Source: Candidatus Pacearchaeota archaeon
Lineage (GTDB): Archaea > Nanobdellota > Nanobdellia > Pacearchaeales > GW2011-AR1
Reading direction: 5' to 3'
NCBI GenBank assembly: GCA_017608305.1
Contig: JAFCGC010000001.1
Coordinates: 1 to 38,743, forward strand
Length of the DNA: 38,743 nt
Shown here: in pieces, positions 14,758-22,825 of the stretch
How the letters are laid out: each line of letters opens with the position of its first letter
Position numbering within the stretch: position 1 is the first letter of the stretch
Translations under genes and position numbers: made by a program
Notes under the pieces: model-generated
Seen by the model: only the letters and a program-made list of their open reading frames with translations
What the model was told of the DNA's origin: nothing
Database searches by the model: none

Positions 14758-15423
14758 ATGACTAACACAGAAAAACCAACAGGAATAACAGAACAGAAAA
14801 AACAAGATAATGTTGGAAAAATACCAAAAACAAAAGAAAAATTCCGGGAAGAAAAAAAATCAGTTCCAGAGACTAAAGAAGAAGTAAAAAAAGAAGAAAA
14901 AGACTCTGAAGGAAAACCTCAGGTCTCGTCCGCCAAAAAGGTCGAACGAAAACAAGAACAGAAAAAACCTAAAATCAAAAAAACAGAGGCTAGTGTAAAC
15001 TCATTTAGTCTTCCAATTTCTACAAAAAAATCTGTTGGTATCAGTAAATTCATTAAAAATAAAAGAATAGATCAAGCAATTTTAGATTTAGAAGAAGTTC
15101 TAAAATTCAAAAAAGCTGTTCCTATGAAAGGAGAAATTCCACATAGAAAAGGTAAAGGAATTATGTCTGGGAGTTTTCCAAAAAAAGCAACAGAACATTT
15201 TATAAAATTATTAAAAAGTCTTGCAGCAAATGCTAATGCGAATGAATTAGAAAACCCAATAATCTCAGAGGTTATAACAAATATGGCTTCAAGACCCTAT
15301 GGGCGGTTTGGAGCAACTAGAAAAAAAAGAAGCCATGTTAAAATAATTGCAAGAGATAAAAAAGAAAATAAACCTAAGAAAGGAGGGAAAAAACAAGACA
15401 ATGGAAGAAAGAAACATAGTTAG
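14758..15423 (+). CDS. rpl22: Ribosomal protein uL22 with a long charged N-terminal extension
   Basis: Core VPMKGEIPHRKGKG...LKSLAANANANELENP...; first ~80 residues are K/E/Q-rich. Confidence 0.92.
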   Translation: MTNTEKPTGITEQKKQDNVGKIPKTKEKFREEKKSVPETKEEVKKEEKDSEGKPQVSSAKKVERKQEQKKPKIKKTEASVNSFSLPISTKKSVGISKFIKNKRIDQAILDLEEVLKFKKAVPMKGEIPHRKGKGIMSGSFPKKATEHFIKLLKSLAANANANELENPIISEVITNMASRPYGRFGATRKKRSHVKIIARDKKENKPKKGGKKQDNGRKKHS

Positions 15424-16614: not shown

Positions 16615-16971
16615 ATGGAAAAGAAAAAAACAAAAACAAGTGGAAGAGAGAAAAGTGTAGCTGGGCAAGACCTAGAATGTAAAAATAGAGATTGTCCAAA
16701 GCATGGAACATTGAAAGTAAGAGGAAGAATGTTCAAAGGCAAAGTAATAAAAAAATTTCCAAAAAGAATTGTTATTGAATTTGAAAGGATGGTTTATGTT
16801 AGAAAGTATGAAAGATATTTTAAATCAAAAACAAAGATACATGCAAGACTTCCAGTTTGTATGGAAAATACAATTAATGTGGGAGACCTTATCAAAGTTC
16901 AAGAATGTCGACCATTAAGTAAAATTGTTCATTTCGTAGTGATTGAAAAAATAAAGGAGGGAAAAAAATGA
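16615..16971 (+). CDS. rps17: Ribosomal protein uS17
   Basis: GKVIKKFPKRIVIEFERMVYVRKYERYFKSKTKIHARLPVCM. Confidence 0.94.
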   Translation: MEKKKTKTSGREKSVAGQDLECKNRDCPKHGTLKVRGRMFKGKVIKKFPKRIVIEFERMVYVRKYERYFKSKTKIHARLPVCMENTINVGDLIKVQECRPLSKIVHFVVIEKIKEGKK

Positions 16972-17027
16972 AGACAAATATGAAATTCTCATTCATCCGA
17001 ATTAAACACGAGGAAAAATTCAAATGA
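16968..17027 (+). CDS. Mini-ORF copy A: MKTNMKFSFIRIKHEEKFK*
   Basis: ATGA overlap with the uS17 stop at its 5' end and ATGA overlap with copy B at its 3' end; similar to copies B, D and E. Confidence 0.5.
   Translation: MKTNMKFSFIRIKHEEKFK
16999..17021 (+). promoter_or_regulatory. SD-in-loop hairpin, copy A
   Basis: GAATT-AAACACGAGGAAA-AATTC: 5-bp stem, 13-nt loop containing GAGG, 2 nt before the next ATG. Confidence 0.45.
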
Positions 17028-17077
17028 AAGTAAATGCAAGATTTTTATTCATTCGTTTTCAGGAAGAAATCAAATGA
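17024..17077 (+). CDS. Mini-ORF copy B: MKVNARFLFIRFQEEIK*
   Basis: ATGA overlap with copy A and with the uL14 start at 17074. Confidence 0.5.
   Translation: MKVNARFLFIRFQEEIK
17055..17071 (+). promoter_or_regulatory. SD-in-loop hairpin, copy B (shorter variant)
   Basis: GTTTT-CAGGAAG-AAATC: 4 of 5 pairs, 7-nt loop containing AGGA (two codons shorter than other copies). Confidence 0.3.
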
Positions 17078-17475
17078 AAGCAATATCGGCAAAAGCTACA
17101 GCTGGGTTAAATCTTGGAGCATGGATGATTTCATCAGACAATAGTGGAGCAAAAATGGTCAAGTTAGTCTCTGTTAAAAAAAGCAAAGCAAAAAAAGGAA
17201 AACAAGTAGCAGCAAAAATTGCTGATTGGGTTAAAGTTAGTGTTAAAAAAGGAATTCCAGACATGAAAGGTAAAGTTTTTGATGCAGTTATAATCAGACA
17301 GAAAAAACCTTTTAGGAGATTAAATGGAGAAAGAGTTGGATTTGAAGATAATGCTGTTGCTATTTTAAAAGATGATAAAGGAAATCCAAAAGGAACTCAA
17401 ATTAAAGGACCAATTGCAAGGGAGGTAATGGAGCGATGGCCCCAAGTGGGCAAAATTGCTTCAATTGTATATTAA
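17074..17475 (+). CDS. rpl14: Ribosomal protein uL14
   Basis: MISSDNSGAKMVKLVSVK...VFDAVIIRQKKPFRRLNGERVGFEDNAVAIL. Confidence 0.95.
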   Translation: MKAISAKATAGLNLGAWMISSDNSGAKMVKLVSVKKSKAKKGKQVAAKIADWVKVSVKKGIPDMKGKVFDAVIIRQKKPFRRLNGERVGFEDNAVAILKDDKGNPKGTQIKGPIAREVMERWPQVGKIASIVY

Positions 17476-17517
17476 ATGAACCTTTTAAAAAGGTTCCCAA
17501 ACCATAATAAAAAATAA
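17476..17517 (+). CDS. Mini-ORF F between uL14 and uL24: MNLLKRFPNHNKK*
   Basis: ATG directly abuts the uL14 TAA; TAA ends 1 nt before the uL24 ATG. Not obviously homologous to copies A-E. Confidence 0.25.
   Translation: MNLLKRFPNHNKK
17478..17496 (+). repeat. Perfect inverted repeat GAACCTTTT-A-AAAAGGTTC
   Basis: 9-bp arms around a single central base in the uL14-uL24 gap. Confidence 0.7.
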
Positions 17518-17518
17518 A

Positions 17519-17971
17519 ATGAAAAAGAAATTCAGTACTAAGTGGAAAGCAAGCAAACAACCTAGAAAACAAAGAAAATATCTAGCAAATGCTCCATTGC
17601 ATCTAAAAAGAAAACTTTTGGCAGTCAATCTTTCAAAAGAATTAAGAAAAAAATATGAAAAAAGAAACATTGTTTTAAGAAAGGGAGATATTGCCAAAGT
17701 CATGAGAGGAAAATTCAAAAAGAAACAAGGAAAAGTTAGTGAAATAAAAACCAAACTATTGAAAGTTTTTGTGGAAGGAATTCAAGTTAAAAAACTAGAT
17801 GGGTCAAAAGTTAATGTTAGCCTTAAACCCTCAAATCTACAAATAGTTGAATTAAATTTAGAGGATAATAAAAGAAGAAAATCCTTGGGAATTAAAACTA
17901 AAAAAGAAGAAGTAAAAAAAGAGACAAAAAAATCAGATACTCAAAAAAAATCACCTGAGGTGAAAAAATAA
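17519..17971 (+). CDS. rpl24: Ribosomal protein uL24 with a charged C-terminal extension
   Basis: APLHLKRKLLAVNLSKELRKKYEKRNIVLRKGDIAKVMRGKFKKKQGKV. Confidence 0.94.
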   Translation: MKKKFSTKWKASKQPRKQRKYLANAPLHLKRKLLAVNLSKELRKKYEKRNIVLRKGDIAKVMRGKFKKKQGKVSEIKTKLLKVFVEGIQVKKLDGSKVNVSLKPSNLQIVELNLEDNKRRKSLGIKTKKEEVKKETKKSDTQKKSPEVKK

Positions 17972-17972
17972 A

Positions 17973-18620
17973 ATGCACCTAAAAAGACAAAAAATACCAA
18001 AAATCTGGCCTCTTGCTAGGAAAGGAACAAAATATGTAGTAAGAGCTAATTTTAATTTAAAAGAAGGAATTCCCATATTAGTCGCTTTAAGAGATATGAT
18101 AAAGATAGCCCAAAATAGAAAAGAAGTAAAAAGGGCCCTACACAACAAACACATCCTACTTAATAATAAAGTTGTGAGAAATGAGAAAAATAGTTTGACT
18201 CTATTTGACAAATTGACAATTTCTCCTCTCAAAAAACACTATAAATTAAATTTATCTAAATTTGGTAAGTTTGAATTTGAAGAAATAAAAGAAAGTGAGG
18301 TTTATCACAAAATATCAAAAATAGTTGATAAAAAAATTTTGAAAGGGAAAAAGATTCAATTAAACCTAAGCGGGGGGAGAAATTTTCTTTCAGATATTAA
18401 ATGTAATGTTAATGATTCTGTAACAGTTGATTTTAAACAAGGAAAAATAATTAAATGTTTGCCTTTAGCTCAAAAAGCAAAAGTCATTGTTTTTGCAGGT
18501 AAACACACTGGAGTAAGAGGAATTATTAACAAAATAAAAACAGAAAGGAAAATGGCAGAATTAGAAGCAAATAAGAAAAAAATCAATGTTTTAATTAAAC
18601 AAATAATTGTAATAGAATGA
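17973..18620 (+). CDS. rps4e: Ribosomal protein eS4
   Basis: MHLKRQKIPKIWPLARKGTKYVVRAN...VFAGKHTGVRGIINKI. Confidence 0.93.
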   Translation: MHLKRQKIPKIWPLARKGTKYVVRANFNLKEGIPILVALRDMIKIAQNRKEVKRALHNKHILLNNKVVRNEKNSLTLFDKLTISPLKKHYKLNLSKFGKFEFEEIKESEVYHKISKIVDKKILKGKKIQLNLSGGRNFLSDIKCNVNDSVTVDFKQGKIIKCLPLAQKAKVIVFAGKHTGVRGIINKIKTERKMAELEANKKKINVLIKQIIVIE

Positions 18621-19120
18621 AAGAAAAGAATATTATGAGAAATATAAAAATAGAAAAAGTAGTATTAAGTGTAGGTGGAATTGGAGATTCTCTGGAAAAA
18701 GGAGTTAAACTTCTTGGAATTTTAACTGGAAGAAAAGCAGCAAAAATGAAATCTAAAAAAAGAATTCCTTCTTTAGGGATTAGACCTAATTTAGAAGTTG
18801 GTGCAGTTGTTACCCTAAGAAAAAATAAAAAAGAAATTCTAAAAAAAATGTTGGTCACAATAGATAACACTTTAAAGAAAAAACAAATAAGTGAAAATAA
18901 TTTTTCATTTGGGATAAAAGAATATATTGAAATTCCTGGAATAGAATATCAAAGAGACATAGGAATTATGGGCTTTGACATTACAGTTGTTTTCAAAAGA
19001 AGTGGAAGAAGAGTTAAACTAAAAAAAATAAAAAGAGGAAAAATACCCAAAAGACAAAGAATTAGTAAAGAAGAAATAATTAAATTTATGGAAGATAACT
19101 TCCAAGTAGAGTTTATTTAA
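18617..19120 (+). CDS. rpl5: Ribosomal protein uL5
   Basis: MRNIKIEKVVLSVGGIGD...SFGIKEYIEIPGIEYQRDIGIMGFDITVVFKR. Confidence 0.95.
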   Translation: MKEKNIMRNIKIEKVVLSVGGIGDSLEKGVKLLGILTGRKAAKMKSKKRIPSLGIRPNLEVGAVVTLRKNKKEILKKMLVTIDNTLKKKQISENNFSFGIKEYIEIPGIEYQRDIGIMGFDITVVFKRSGRRVKLKKIKRGKIPKRQRISKEEIIKFMEDNFQVEFI

Positions 19121-19121
19121 A

Positions 19122-19226
19122 ATGAAAGCAAGACAAAAATCAAAGATTTTAGCTCATTCGTCTAAAACCCAAATGAATCAAAGATTTTCATTCATTCGAA
19201 TTAAATATGGAGTAAAATTCAAATGA
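19122..19226 (+). CDS. Mini-ORF copies C+D fused in frame: [34 protein letters not shown]
   Basis: 34 codons; internal ATG at 19173 begins copy D ([17 protein letters not shown]). Stop overlaps the uS14 ATG as ATGA. Confidence 0.45.
19198..19220 (+). promoter_or_regulatory. SD-in-loop hairpin, copy D
   Basis: GAATT-AAATATGGAGTAA-AATTC: 5-bp stem, 13-nt loop containing GGAG, 2 nt before the uS14 ATG. Confidence 0.45.
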
Positions 19227-19453
19227 CCGCATCAGATTGGAAAAAAATATTAAAACAATTGAAAAATAAACCAGAAAAGGTTGCAAAATTTTTAAAACAC
19301 AATAAACCCAAGGATAGAAAAATTGGAATAGCCGTGAAGAAGTGTGAAAGGTGTGGAAGGTTTGGAGCTCATATCAAATCATATGGATTAAATTTATGTC
19401 GACATTGCTTCAGAGAAATTGCTGAAGAAATCGGCTTTAAAAAATACAGTTAA
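19223..19453 (+). CDS. rps14: Ribosomal protein uS14 (zinc type) with an N-terminal extension
   Basis: [37 protein letters not shown]. Confidence 0.94.
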
Positions 19454-19454
19454 A

Positions 19455-19835
19455 ATGTCACAAGATATTGTTAGTGATGGATTAAATATGATAAAAAATG
19501 CCAAAAAGGCAAGAAAAGAATTTATCACAATTAAGAGAATTTCTAATTTACTAGTGGAAATCTTAAAAATAATGAAGCAAAAAGGAGCTATAAAGAAGTA
19601 TAAAATTGATGGAAAATCTAAATCATTAATAATAACAATAGGAGAATTGCATGAATGTAAGGCAGTTAAACCAAGATTCACAGTAAAAAAAGATCAAATT
19701 GAAAAATATAAAAGAAGGTATCTTCCTGCACGAAACATTGGGAATCTGATAGTTTCTACAAATAAAGGATTAATGACTCATGAAGAAGCTCAAGAAGAAG
19801 AAATAGGGGGATGCTTAGTAGCATATTTTTATTAA
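19455..19835 (+). CDS. rps8: Ribosomal protein uS8
   Basis: DGLNMIKNAKKARKEFITIKRISNLLVEILKIMKQKG...LPARNIGNLIVSTNKGLMTHEEA. ATG 19455 preferred. Confidence 0.94.
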   Translation: MSQDIVSDGLNMIKNAKKARKEFITIKRISNLLVEILKIMKQKGAIKKYKIDGKSKSLIITIGELHECKAVKPRFTVKKDQIEKYKRRYLPARNIGNLIVSTNKGLMTHEEAQEEEIGGCLVAYFY

Positions 19836-19838
19836 AAA

Positions 19839-20381
19839 ATGAAAAAAGAATTATTTGAAAAAATTGAGATTCCTGAAGGAATTGAAGCAAACATAGAAGA
19901 TTCTACAATAATTATAAAAGGTCCTGGAGGGGAAAATAAAAGAAAATTTGAATTTCAAAATCTAGAATTTGAAAAAGAAGGTAAATATATTAAAATTGGA
20001 CATAAAAAAGCCACAAAAAGAGAGAAAAAGATGATAAATACAATTGCCTCACATATTAGAAATATGATAAAAGGAATTCAAGAAAAATTTGAATATAAAT
20101 TAAAAGCTTGTTTTAGTCATTTTCCTATGAGCATAAATATTGAAAAAAATGAAGCTACTATAAAGAATTTTTTAGGTGAAAAAATACCTAGAAAAGTAAA
20201 AATTCTAGAACAAGTAGATGTAGAATTGAATAAAGATATAATTACCATAAAATCAGTAGATCGAGAACTAGCTGGACAAACTGCTGCAAATTTCGAGGCG
20301 GCTACAAGAATAAGGGGAAAAGATAGAAGAGTCTTCCAAGATGGAATTTTCATTACAAGTAAATGTGGTAAAGAAATATGA
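19839..20381 (+). CDS. rpl6: Ribosomal protein uL6
   Basis: IEIPEGIEANIEDSTIIIKGPGGENKRKF...; operon position. Confidence 0.93.
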   Translation: MKKELFEKIEIPEGIEANIEDSTIIIKGPGGENKRKFEFQNLEFEKEGKYIKIGHKKATKREKKMINTIASHIRNMIKGIQEKFEYKLKACFSHFPMSINIEKNEATIKNFLGEKIPRKVKILEQVDVELNKDIITIKSVDRELAGQTAANFEAATRIRGKDRRVFQDGIFITSKCGKEI

Positions 20382-20824
20382 CTAAGAAATTTTTAAGAAG
20401 AATTTGGAACAGATATTCAAAATTAGGAAAAAGAAGAAAGAAAAAACAAGGCTGGAAAAAACCTACTGGAAGAGATAATAAAATGAGGGAGAAAAGAAAA
20501 GGATATCCTGTTGTAGTTAGTGTAGGTTATAAAAAAGGAAAACAAATTAGAGGAATAATTAAAGGAAAAAAGCCAATTCTAGTAAAAAACATCCAAGATT
20601 TAGAAAAAATAGGAAAAACCCAAATAGCTCTTTTAGGAAAAATAGGAAAAAAGAAAAAAATTGAAGTTGTTAAAAAAGCAAAAGAAATGAAAATCAAGTT
20701 CCATAATATTAATATTAAAACATTTTTAGATAAAAATAAAATTAAAAAAAAGGCCGAGGCAGAAGTAAAAAAAACTAAAGATAAAAAAGAAGAACCAAAA
20801 AAATCTGGAGAAAATAAAAAATGA
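20378..20824 (+). CDS. rpl32e: Ribosomal protein eL32
   Basis: FLRRIWNRYSKLGKRRKKKQGWKKPTGRDNKMREKRKGYP. Confidence 0.92.
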   Translation: MTKKFLRRIWNRYSKLGKRRKKKQGWKKPTGRDNKMREKRKGYPVVVSVGYKKGKQIRGIIKGKKPILVKNIQDLEKIGKTQIALLGKIGKKKKIEVVKKAKEMKIKFHNINIKTFLDKNKIKKKAEAEVKKTKDKKEEPKKSGENKK

Positions 20825-21216
20825 ATCTAAGGAAAAAGAAGGCATTAGCTTCAAAAGTTTTGAAAATAGGGAAAAAGAGAGTTTTATTTATGGAGTCAAG
20901 ATTAGGAGATATAAAAGAAGCTATAACAAACCAAGACATAAGGGATTTACAAAAAGATGGAGCCATATCTATTAAAGAAGCTAAAGGTAAAAAAAAGAAA
21001 ATAAAAAAACCCAAAAGAAGAGGGCCAGGTAAAATTAGAAAAAAAATAAATAAAAGAAAAAGAGAATATGTAAATCTCACAAGAAAATTAAGAAAATATG
21101 TTTCTGAACTAAAGAAACAAGGGAAATTATCAAAGGAAGAAGCAGAAAACATAAGGAAAAAAATAAGAAATAAAGAATTTAGAAGTAAAACTCACCTTAG
21201 GGAGAATCTCAAATGA
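20821..21216 (+). CDS. rpl19e: Ribosomal protein eL19
   Basis: MNLRKKKALASKVLKIGKKRV...ITNQDIRDLQKDGAISIK; ATGA overlaps on both sides. Confidence 0.92.
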   Translation: MNLRKKKALASKVLKIGKKRVLFMESRLGDIKEAITNQDIRDLQKDGAISIKEAKGKKKKIKKPKRRGPGKIRKKINKRKREYVNLTRKLRKYVSELKKQGKLSKEEAENIRKKIRNKEFRSKTHLRENLK

Positions 21217-21710
21217 AAACTTTAAAAAAACGAAGAAAACAAGGAAAAACAAATTATCTAAAAAGACTCAAACTTCTCAAAGGTAGATCTCCTAGAATAG
21301 TTTTCAGGAAAACAAATAAATATATTCTAGCACAATATGTTCAAAGTAAAGAAGCACAAGATAAAGTAGAAGAAGGAATAAGTTCAAAAATTCTGTTAAA
21401 ATATGGTTGGCCAAAAGAGAGTAAAGGAAGTTTAAAATCTATTCCTGCAGCATATCTCACAGGATTTTTAGCAGGTAAAAAAATTTTAAAGGGGAAAAAA
21501 GAAACTCCTATTTTGGATCTTGGAATGATTAGAACCCTACATAAATCAAAAGTCTATGGGTTTGCGAAAGGTTTAGTAGATGCTGGAGTTAAATTAAAAA
21601 TTAAAGAAGAAATTTTCCCTGAAGAAAATAGGATAGAAGGAAAACATATGAAAAAAGATTTTTCAGATGCATTCAAGAAAATTAAATCTAGAATTCAAGA
21701 AAATGAGTGA
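21213..21710 (+). CDS. rpl18: Ribosomal protein uL18
   Basis: RRKQGKTNYLKRLKLLKGRSPRIVFRKTNKYILAQ...AAYLTGFLAGKK. Confidence 0.94.
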   Translation: MKTLKKRRKQGKTNYLKRLKLLKGRSPRIVFRKTNKYILAQYVQSKEAQDKVEEGISSKILLKYGWPKESKGSLKSIPAAYLTGFLAGKKILKGKKETPILDLGMIRTLHKSKVYGFAKGLVDAGVKLKIKEEIFPEENRIEGKHMKKDFSDAFKKIKSRIQENE

Positions 21711-22425
21711 AAATAAAGAAAAAGTTTCAAAAGAAACTGTAAAATCTAAAATAGAAACCAAAAGAGAGATAGAAAAAAAGGAAGCACTAGTAAATTGGGA
21801 TCCAAAAACAAAGCTAGGATCTGAAGTTAAGAATGGAAAAATCACAAATATCGACGAGATTTTAGACAATGATAGGAAGATTCTTGAATCAGAAATCGTG
21901 GATTCTTTAATTCAAGTTAAAACAGATTTAATTTCTATTGGACAGTCAAAAGGAAAGTTTGGGGGAGGAAAAAGAAGAGCTTGGCGTCAAACTCAAAGAA
22001 AAAAGAAAGAAGGTAATGTTCCAACATTTTCAACATTAGCAGTAGCAGGGGATGAAAAAGGACATGTTGGCGTTGGACAAGGTAAAGCTAAAGAAACTCT
22101 TCCTGCAAGAGATAAAGCAATAAGGAAATCCAAACTTAATATTATAAAAGTTAATAGGACTTGTGCAGGATTTGATTGTGCATGCAAAGAACCACATTCT
22201 ATTCCGTTTAAAGTTACTGGAAAAGCCGGAAGTGTGAAAGTTACATTAATTCCTGCTCCACAAGGAACAGGATTAGTTGTTGGAAATGAATTAAAAAAAA
22301 TTTTGAAGCTTGCTGGAATTAAAGATGTTTATAGCAGAACCACTGGAAGAAAAAGAACAACATTTAATCTAGTAAAAGCTTGTATGGATGCTTTAAAGAA
22401 AACAACAATGAGGGATAAAAAATGA
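21703..22425 (+). CDS. rps5: Ribosomal protein uS5
   Basis: GGGKRRAWRQTQRKKKEGNVPTFSTLAVAGDEKGHVGVGQGKAKET. ATG 21703 within the uL18 3' end. Confidence 0.94.
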   Translation: MSENKEKVSKETVKSKIETKREIEKKEALVNWDPKTKLGSEVKNGKITNIDEILDNDRKILESEIVDSLIQVKTDLISIGQSKGKFGGGKRRAWRQTQRKKKEGNVPTFSTLAVAGDEKGHVGVGQGKAKETLPARDKAIRKSKLNIIKVNRTCAGFDCACKEPHSIPFKVTGKAGSVKVTLIPAPQGTGLVVGNELKKILKLAGIKDVYSRTTGRKRTTFNLVKACMDALKKTTMRDKK

Positions 22426-22481
22426 AAGCAAATACAAGATTTTCATTCATCCAAAATAAACAAAGGAGAAATTTTGAATGA
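22422..22481 (+). CDS. Mini-ORF copy E: MKANTRFSFIQNKQRRNFE*
   Basis: ATGA overlap with the uS5 stop (22423-22425) and with the uL30 start (22478). Confidence 0.5.
   Translation: MKANTRFSFIQNKQRRNFE
22452..22476 (+). promoter_or_regulatory. SD-in-loop hairpin, copy E
   Basis: CAAAAT-AAACAAAGGAGAA-ATTTTG: 6-bp stem, 13-nt loop containing AGGAG, just upstream of the uL30 ATG. Confidence 0.45.
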
Positions 22482-22825
22482 TCGCAATAATAAGAATTGC
22501 TGGACAAGTAGGATTAAAAAAAGAAATAGTTGAAACTCTAAGTAGACTTAGATTAAGGAAAAAATATGCTTGTATAATTATTGAAAAGCCCTCAAAGGAG
22601 CAATTAGGTATGATAAATAAAATCAGAGATTTTGTTGCATTTGGAAATATCAATGATAAAACTCATAAAAAGTTAATAGAAAAGCGAAAAACAAAAATAA
22701 AAAACTTTTTTCGCCTTCATCCTCCAAGAAAAGGAATTGATGCAAAAAAACATTTTGGTGTGAAAAAAGGAGTTTTAGGAAATAATAAAGAGAAGATTAA
22801 TGAATTAATCGAGAGGATGTTGTAA
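22478..22825 (+). CDS. rpl30: Ribosomal protein uL30
   Basis: IIRIAGQVGLKKEIVETLSRLRLRKKYACIII...FFRLHPPRKGI. Confidence 0.93.
   Translation: MIAIIRIAGQVGLKKEIVETLSRLRLRKKYACIIIEKPSKEQLGMINKIRDFVAFGNINDKTHKKLIEKRKTKIKNFFRLHPPRKGIDAKKHFGVKKGVLGNNKEKINELIERML

Follow-up and report, generated by a model that had tools for sequence, protein, structure and literature searches.

Coupled micro-ORFs between archaeal ribosomal protein genes as start-site copies of a short dispersed palindromic repeat

A 38,743 nucleotide (nt) stretch of a Candidatus Pacearchaeota archaeon genome (GCA_017608305.1, contig JAFCGC010000001.1, positions 1 to 38,743 of the forward strand; hereafter the window) carries an S10/spc-type series of ribosomal protein genes in which the S17-L14, L5-S14 and S5-L30 joints are occupied by very short open reading frames (ORFs), here called micro-ORFs. 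These had been described in an earlier note on the same DNA; all of their sequences and positions were verified, Pfam agrees that the flanking genes are S17, L14, L5, S14, S5 and L30, and every window copy does end in an ATGA overlap with the next ATG, as that note had claimed. Judged from their sequences, the micro-ORFs are start-site copies of a palindromic repeat with a unit length of about 45-60 nt, dispersed in one Pacearchaeota/Nanoarchaeota family, and they probably work as small ribosome relays into the gene that follows. Of the start type the window contains A, B, D and E; a fifth copy, C, is frame-shifted and fused to D:

16968..17027, plus strand: copy A, a 19-residue micro-ORF, first of the two in the S17-L14 joint, MKTNMKFSFIRIKHEEKFK then stop
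17024..17077, plus strand: copy B, a 17-residue micro-ORF in the S17-L14 joint, in tandem with A, MKVNARFLFIRFQEEIK then stop
19122..19226, plus strand: a 34-residue ORF made of copies C and D fused in frame, occupying the whole L5-S14 gap
19173..19226, plus strand: copy D, a 17-residue micro-ORF in the L5-S14 gap, in tandem with C
22422..22481, plus strand: copy E, a 19-residue micro-ORF in the S5-L30 joint, MKANTRFSFIQNKQRRNFE then stop

The ATG of copy A lies within the ATGA of the S17 stop, and its own stop lies within the ATGA of copy B, whose stop in turn overlaps the L14 start as ATGA; the same overlap joins copy D to S14, and copy E has it at both ends, with the S5 stop and with the L30 start. 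Copy C spans 19122 to ~19172, its core being read in another frame (..KILAHSS..). The 21-nt core has three matching places against 0.06 expected from shuffles. One more start-type copy occurs in the same genome on contig C11, upstream of apgM and divergent from an FtsY-like gene. On contig C22, one BLAST match (L026) was rejected as a copy: it arose by chance and lies within a long, unrelated ORF.

Further copies were sought with a covariance model built from six copies (R1) and with a sequence model of the 5' half only (R2) in 200 genomes of the order, 181 from the family and 19 outside it; the genomes surveyed are mostly incomplete drafts. The covariance search, which the earlier note had suggested, found matches in 63 of the 181 family genomes at E<=0.01 and in 76 at E<=0.1, where the richest genome had 20 copies, and R2 matched 118/181 at E<=0.05. 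None of the 19 same-order genomes outside the family was matched by R1. Matches in a class sample of 378 genomes were confined to family members, and a degenerate DNA pattern run against about 85,000 species recovered 25 loci, all in archaeal metagenome-assembled genomes (MAGs) named Pacearchaeota, Nanoarchaeota or just archaeon; viral contigs scanned with the DNA pattern gave no match. Presence across relatives is patchy. Literature searches, of open-licence papers only, found no earlier description of the repeat. At three loci (L340, L341 and L367, in genomes G131, G003 and G013) the repeat is longer, its 5' box containing an additional inserted segment that resembles AGCCAAGTAGGTCTA.

The start of the next gene is the exact stop point in 110 of 118 scorable copies: 103 have an ATGA overlap, in 4 the stop comes directly before the start and in 3 one base before it, and 8 are uncoupled. 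The distance from ATG to ATG is 47, 50, 53, 56, 59, 62, 68 or 77 in 104/118, values that are all 2 modulo 3, and 22 of the 36 distances outside the two commonest lengths, both of them built into R1, are still 2 modulo 3. Nine copies have the core in another frame relative to their own ATG and are still coupled at -4. Length changes come mostly in threes, and the coupling persists in frame-shifted copies, so the peptide is not the conserved thing; what is conserved is the nucleic acid together with a coupled open frame.

RNAfold predicted the same architecture throughout the first six copies, with a 5' arm formed by the CAUU-containing core, a 3' arm ending in the next AUG and a Shine-Dalgarno (SD) sequence in the loop. 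In the window the predicted hairpins are:

16993..17027, plus strand: hairpin of copy A, copy B AUG in the 3' arm, loop GAGG (17010-17013)
17048..17078, plus strand: hairpin of copy B, L14 AUG in the 3' arm, loop AGGA (17061-17064)
19192..19226, plus strand: hairpin of copy D, S14 AUG in the 3' arm, loop GGAG (19209-19212)
22447..22481, plus strand: hairpin of copy E, L30 AUG in the 3' arm, loop AGGAG (22464-22468)

The copy E hairpin has compensatory differences relative to A and D. Stem position 9 pairs in 96% of 127 distinct copies against 48% with partners shuffled (A-T 64, T-A 53, G-C 2), position 8 in 87% against 52% (A-T, C-G, T-A) and position 6 in 80% against 58%; there are 64 distinct arm pairs, and pairing at positions 8 and 9 falls when the register is slid. 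Copies picked by their 5' half alone, and hence not chosen for a hairpin, have unrelated stems in the same register (e.g. CAUAAAAAU/AUUUUUAUG, CAUUUAAU/AUUAAAUG), apart from one of the seven inspected (L258), which has no such stem. In 104/127 copies the AUG is preceded, at a distance of 6-11 nt, by an SD of four bases or more, and the predicted pairing probability of the AUG is 0.87, against 0.58 with the upstream segment shuffled. Some copies also fold a second hairpin, in which the AUGAAA of the micro-ORF itself pairs with UUUUCAUU; its arms show hardly any variation.

The corresponding joints of relatives, many of which have no copy there, are mostly compact. At S17/L14, 17 of 30 loci show a direct ATGA overlap and three others a spacing of -1 or +1; at L5/S14 the prevailing forms are TAA-A-ATG and -4; and 15/30 loci have a spacing of -4 at S5/L30. 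The repeat sits exactly in the stop-start joint, which is thereby duplicated. Genomes of other genera have a copy at the same S17/L14 joint (G015) and the same C+D pair at L5/S14 (G023), and the gene start is visibly duplicated at the insertion in L251/L259. In the S17-L14 joint of G003 (L050), the first codons of L14 are duplicated (MKPVSA then stop) ahead of a degraded insert that resembles the repeat.

Relatives of the repeat (about AAAGCAAATCAAAGATTTTCATTCGTCCGCC..GGACGTCGAACGAAAGC) also sit in frame within long ORFs, in several phases. Essential proteins are among the hosts (a YchF-type GTPase, thermosome, GatE and uL22), the last of these in the window:

14913..14959, plus strand: intragenic copy, in frame, in the N-terminal extension of uL22 (..QVSSAKKVERKQEQ..)

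In a YchF-type GTPase of the source genome (G000, contig C38:50743-50804, L388), the in-frame copy KQIIDFHSSANESGIERKQ lies in a conserved loop and forms a clean insert of about 16 residues that is absent from the Pyrococcus relative 1wxq. Clean inserts of about 26 residues are likewise found in a thermosome (two tandem copies, compared with 1q3r) and in GatE (compared with 2d6f); all three comparisons were made with relatives of solved structure. Thermosome subunits of two genera (L260 in G131, L261 in G029) carry the repeat at about the same place, as a tandem pair in one of them. A model of the intragenic copies (R3) also picks up start-type copies, and intragenic and start-type copies are therefore one family. 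Dispersal, compact empty sites, tandems and in-frame intragenic copies together give good support to a hypothesis of the earlier note, that a small repeat spreads between genes while the operon stays translatable.

We think it likely that the repeat is a coding palindrome prone to insertion and that its copies at gene starts serve as fore-cistrons, through which ribosomes are relayed by termination-reinitiation. A gene-start copy has its own ATG, an open frame, usually an SD for the gene that follows, a predicted hairpin in which the following AUG is paired, and a stop coinciding with that AUG. Ribosomes would come from the upstream gene, or initiate at the micro-ORF ATG of a leaderless transcript; translation of the micro-ORF would melt the hairpin, and termination at the ATGA would pass the ribosome to the next gene. 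Insertion would be tolerated because the stop-start coupling survives. ATGA gene pairs are tightly coupled in archaea, as work with Haloferax and E. coli indicates (PMC6728339), and little coupling is left when the gap is about 20 nt (PMC10666635). An insert of 50 nt would therefore leave a pair coupled only if it contained an open frame; a micro-ORF with ATGA at both ends would keep ribosomes moving across the joint. Some copies may later have been kept as fore-cistrons, and initiation of the next gene would then depend on translation of the micro-ORF. We infer this translation, the reinitiation, the gating by the hairpin and the mobility from arrangement and comparison. A termination-reinitiation relay was another hypothesis of the earlier note, and the kept coupling, the length changes mostly in threes and the SD/AUG placement speak for it; the overall interpretation of that note is thus partly supported. 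More tentatively, and on balance we would not expect it, the mobile or formerly mobile repeat might be a natural portable bicistronic initiation cassette that enters ATGA joints, gates the next start with its hairpin and gives ribosomal protein genes, apgM and others a common translational control that has been retained across genera.

Confidence in the relay must be tempered by several points. R1 favours its own length classes, most copies having been found with a model that covers the 3' half and the two commonest lengths; the copies share descent; and some are uncoupled or have no ATG. Taken singly, the hairpins have little stability (-3 to -7 kcal/mol, mean z about -1). Stem positions 1-3 (CAU with AUG) are nearly invariant and so give no covariation signal, and with a register slide of -1 positions 4, 6 and 7 score equal or better, so that the covariation evidence rests mainly on positions 8 and 9. 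Checks of transposase association and of neighbourhoods identified no mobilising enzyme. A Y1 transposase is present in 7/12 repeat-rich and 2/14 repeat-poor genomes (p 0.04), and no repeat copies were found near Y1 transposase genes; given this weak association and the lack of repeats near its genes, an IS200/IS605-type Y1 transposase was rejected as the mover. The source genome has three such genes, on contigs C12, C28 and C30, with no repeat nearby.

The best surviving rival, which we nevertheless doubt, is a purely selfish or neutral repeat, in which the hairpin would be a DNA feature of spreading and the coupled copies would be the survivors of selection against broken operons, with no translational role. 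Intragenic, intergenic and tandem copies and the patchy presence fit it, as does the tendency of 5' halves to be closer to other copies within their genome than to those before the same gene in other genomes (25 vs 10), in a genome-versus-site grouping that is mixed overall. So does the duplication of host sequence at some insertions: the GatE insert (L370, G124 contig C47) lies between EEDSARKI and EEDSARIV, possibly a target duplication. Micro-ORF starts resemble the start of their own downstream gene slightly more than permuted ones do (p 0.003, positions 4-12), a weak hint of target duplication. Survival accounts for the open frame but less well for the placement of SD and AUG, where the SD spacing is constant and the AUG-pairing register is kept while stem sequences change. 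The recurrence of start-type copies upstream of the same genes across genera, most often L14 (20), S14 (13) and apgM (11), also speaks against this rival.

These genes are followed in frequency by one for an MKGxxxQFRRGR protein, probably eL33 (7), and by L23 (5), S3 (4) and L30 (3); gene names beyond those tested with Pfam were read from the sequences. This strong enrichment for ribosomal protein genes could instead point to a dedicated regulatory leader of such genes, an autogenous operator or attenuator and not a mobile repeat, to which the covarying structure at the start site and leaderless-type promoters before several copies would also be suited. An ATGA overlap with a preceding stop is found in 36/123 start copies. 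A scan by simple pattern, which carries no background estimate, picked out a TATA-like box in 16 of the 35 start copies that no upstream gene end closely precedes; in most cases the box lies 27-33 nt ahead of the micro-ORF's ATG, as expected for leaderless transcripts. We regard a dedicated leader as improbable. The repeat is not specific to one ribosomal operon or protein: many further downstream genes have other functions and occur as single cases, and copies before apgM, an ABC transporter, a nucleotidyltransferase and other unrelated genes, together with those inside genes, led us to reject an operon-specific S10/spc leader. In-frame copies inside proteins already weaken the idea, and tandem arrays and the many relatives that have no copy at the same joint weaken it further.

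A family of basic micropeptides with a function in binding the ribosome or rRNA, also put forward in the earlier note, has very little probability, for although most copies are basic and share MK(A/V)Nx(R/K)FSFI, with a ratio of non-synonymous to synonymous differences (pN/pS) below 1, copies that carry the core in another frame stay coupled, the intragenic relatives occur in several phases, and that ratio is only as low as 0.65 (codons 2-10), which is not peptide-like. The synonymous TTT/TTC and ATT/ATC changes once taken as a sign of peptide selection do not generalise: in 86 distinct 5' halves variable positions are spread across codon positions and not focused on the third. Frame shifts and substitution pattern led us to reject a peptide family, in which frame and amino acids would be kept and variation would be mainly synonymous.

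The nearest described analogue of the repeat, not named in the earlier note, is the Rickettsia palindromic element (RPE). As far as they are summarised in PMC10969869 (after Ogata et al. 2000), RPEs are multicopy palindromic repeats that lie in frame in unrelated, often essential protein genes and add a peptide segment. The repeat described here is likewise palindromic, hairpin-forming and present in many copies, some in frame inside unrelated protein genes; unlike RPEs, given in that summary as about 100-150 bp long and from Rickettsia, it measures about 45-60 nt, gave matches to its DNA pattern in archaeal MAGs only and has no shown sequence relation to them. Because length and occurrence in Rickettsia differ, it is like an RPE but not a member. 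We know of no start-codon class of coupled micro-ORFs among RPEs, and the copies studied here look like a new variant within coding palindromes, a start-codon class resembling a natural ribosome relay. Prokaryotic miniature inverted-repeat transposable elements (MITEs) and enterobacterial repeat units with ORFs (PMC10969869, PMC2759123) are also small, dispersed, non-autonomous and sometimes intragenic and translated, whereas the present repeat has an internal palindrome; neither terminal inverted repeats nor a constant target duplication nor an autonomous partner was found, and host duplication is seen in few cases. In its working, though not in descent, it would resemble bicistronic design (BCD) cassettes, including the leaderless BCD of Corynebacterium (PMC10367133), in which a short fore-cistron contains the SD of the second gene and its stop is joined to the second start. 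The same anatomy is seen here, with its own start, the next gene's SD within a short ORF, a stop joined to the next start and, in some copies, a putative leaderless start, but the repeat is natural, multicopy, dispersed and not engineered, and an extra hairpin pairs the second AUG. Natural termination-reinitiation at archaeal ATGA overlaps (PMC6728339, PMC10666635) has the same stop-start geometry between neighbours; the difference is that the upstream partner here is a repeated micro-ORF, inserted in a joint that is usually direct in relatives.

A coding palindrome of the Rickettsia type is thereby found in tiny-genome archaea, where space for repeats should be small, along with a route by which a repeat can enter the most compact operons and leave them unbroken. 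If the relay works, it would be a natural counterpart of engineered bicistronic cassettes and would allow a direct test of the reach of termination-reinitiation in operon architecture. The in-frame copies in the thermosome, the YchF-type GTPase and GatE bear on the origin of new protein segments.

The L30 gene downstream of copy E (22478-22825) encodes 115 residues; in many relatives its match is split and the reading frame is longer, about 140-160 residues, so that the window L30 lacks a middle segment.

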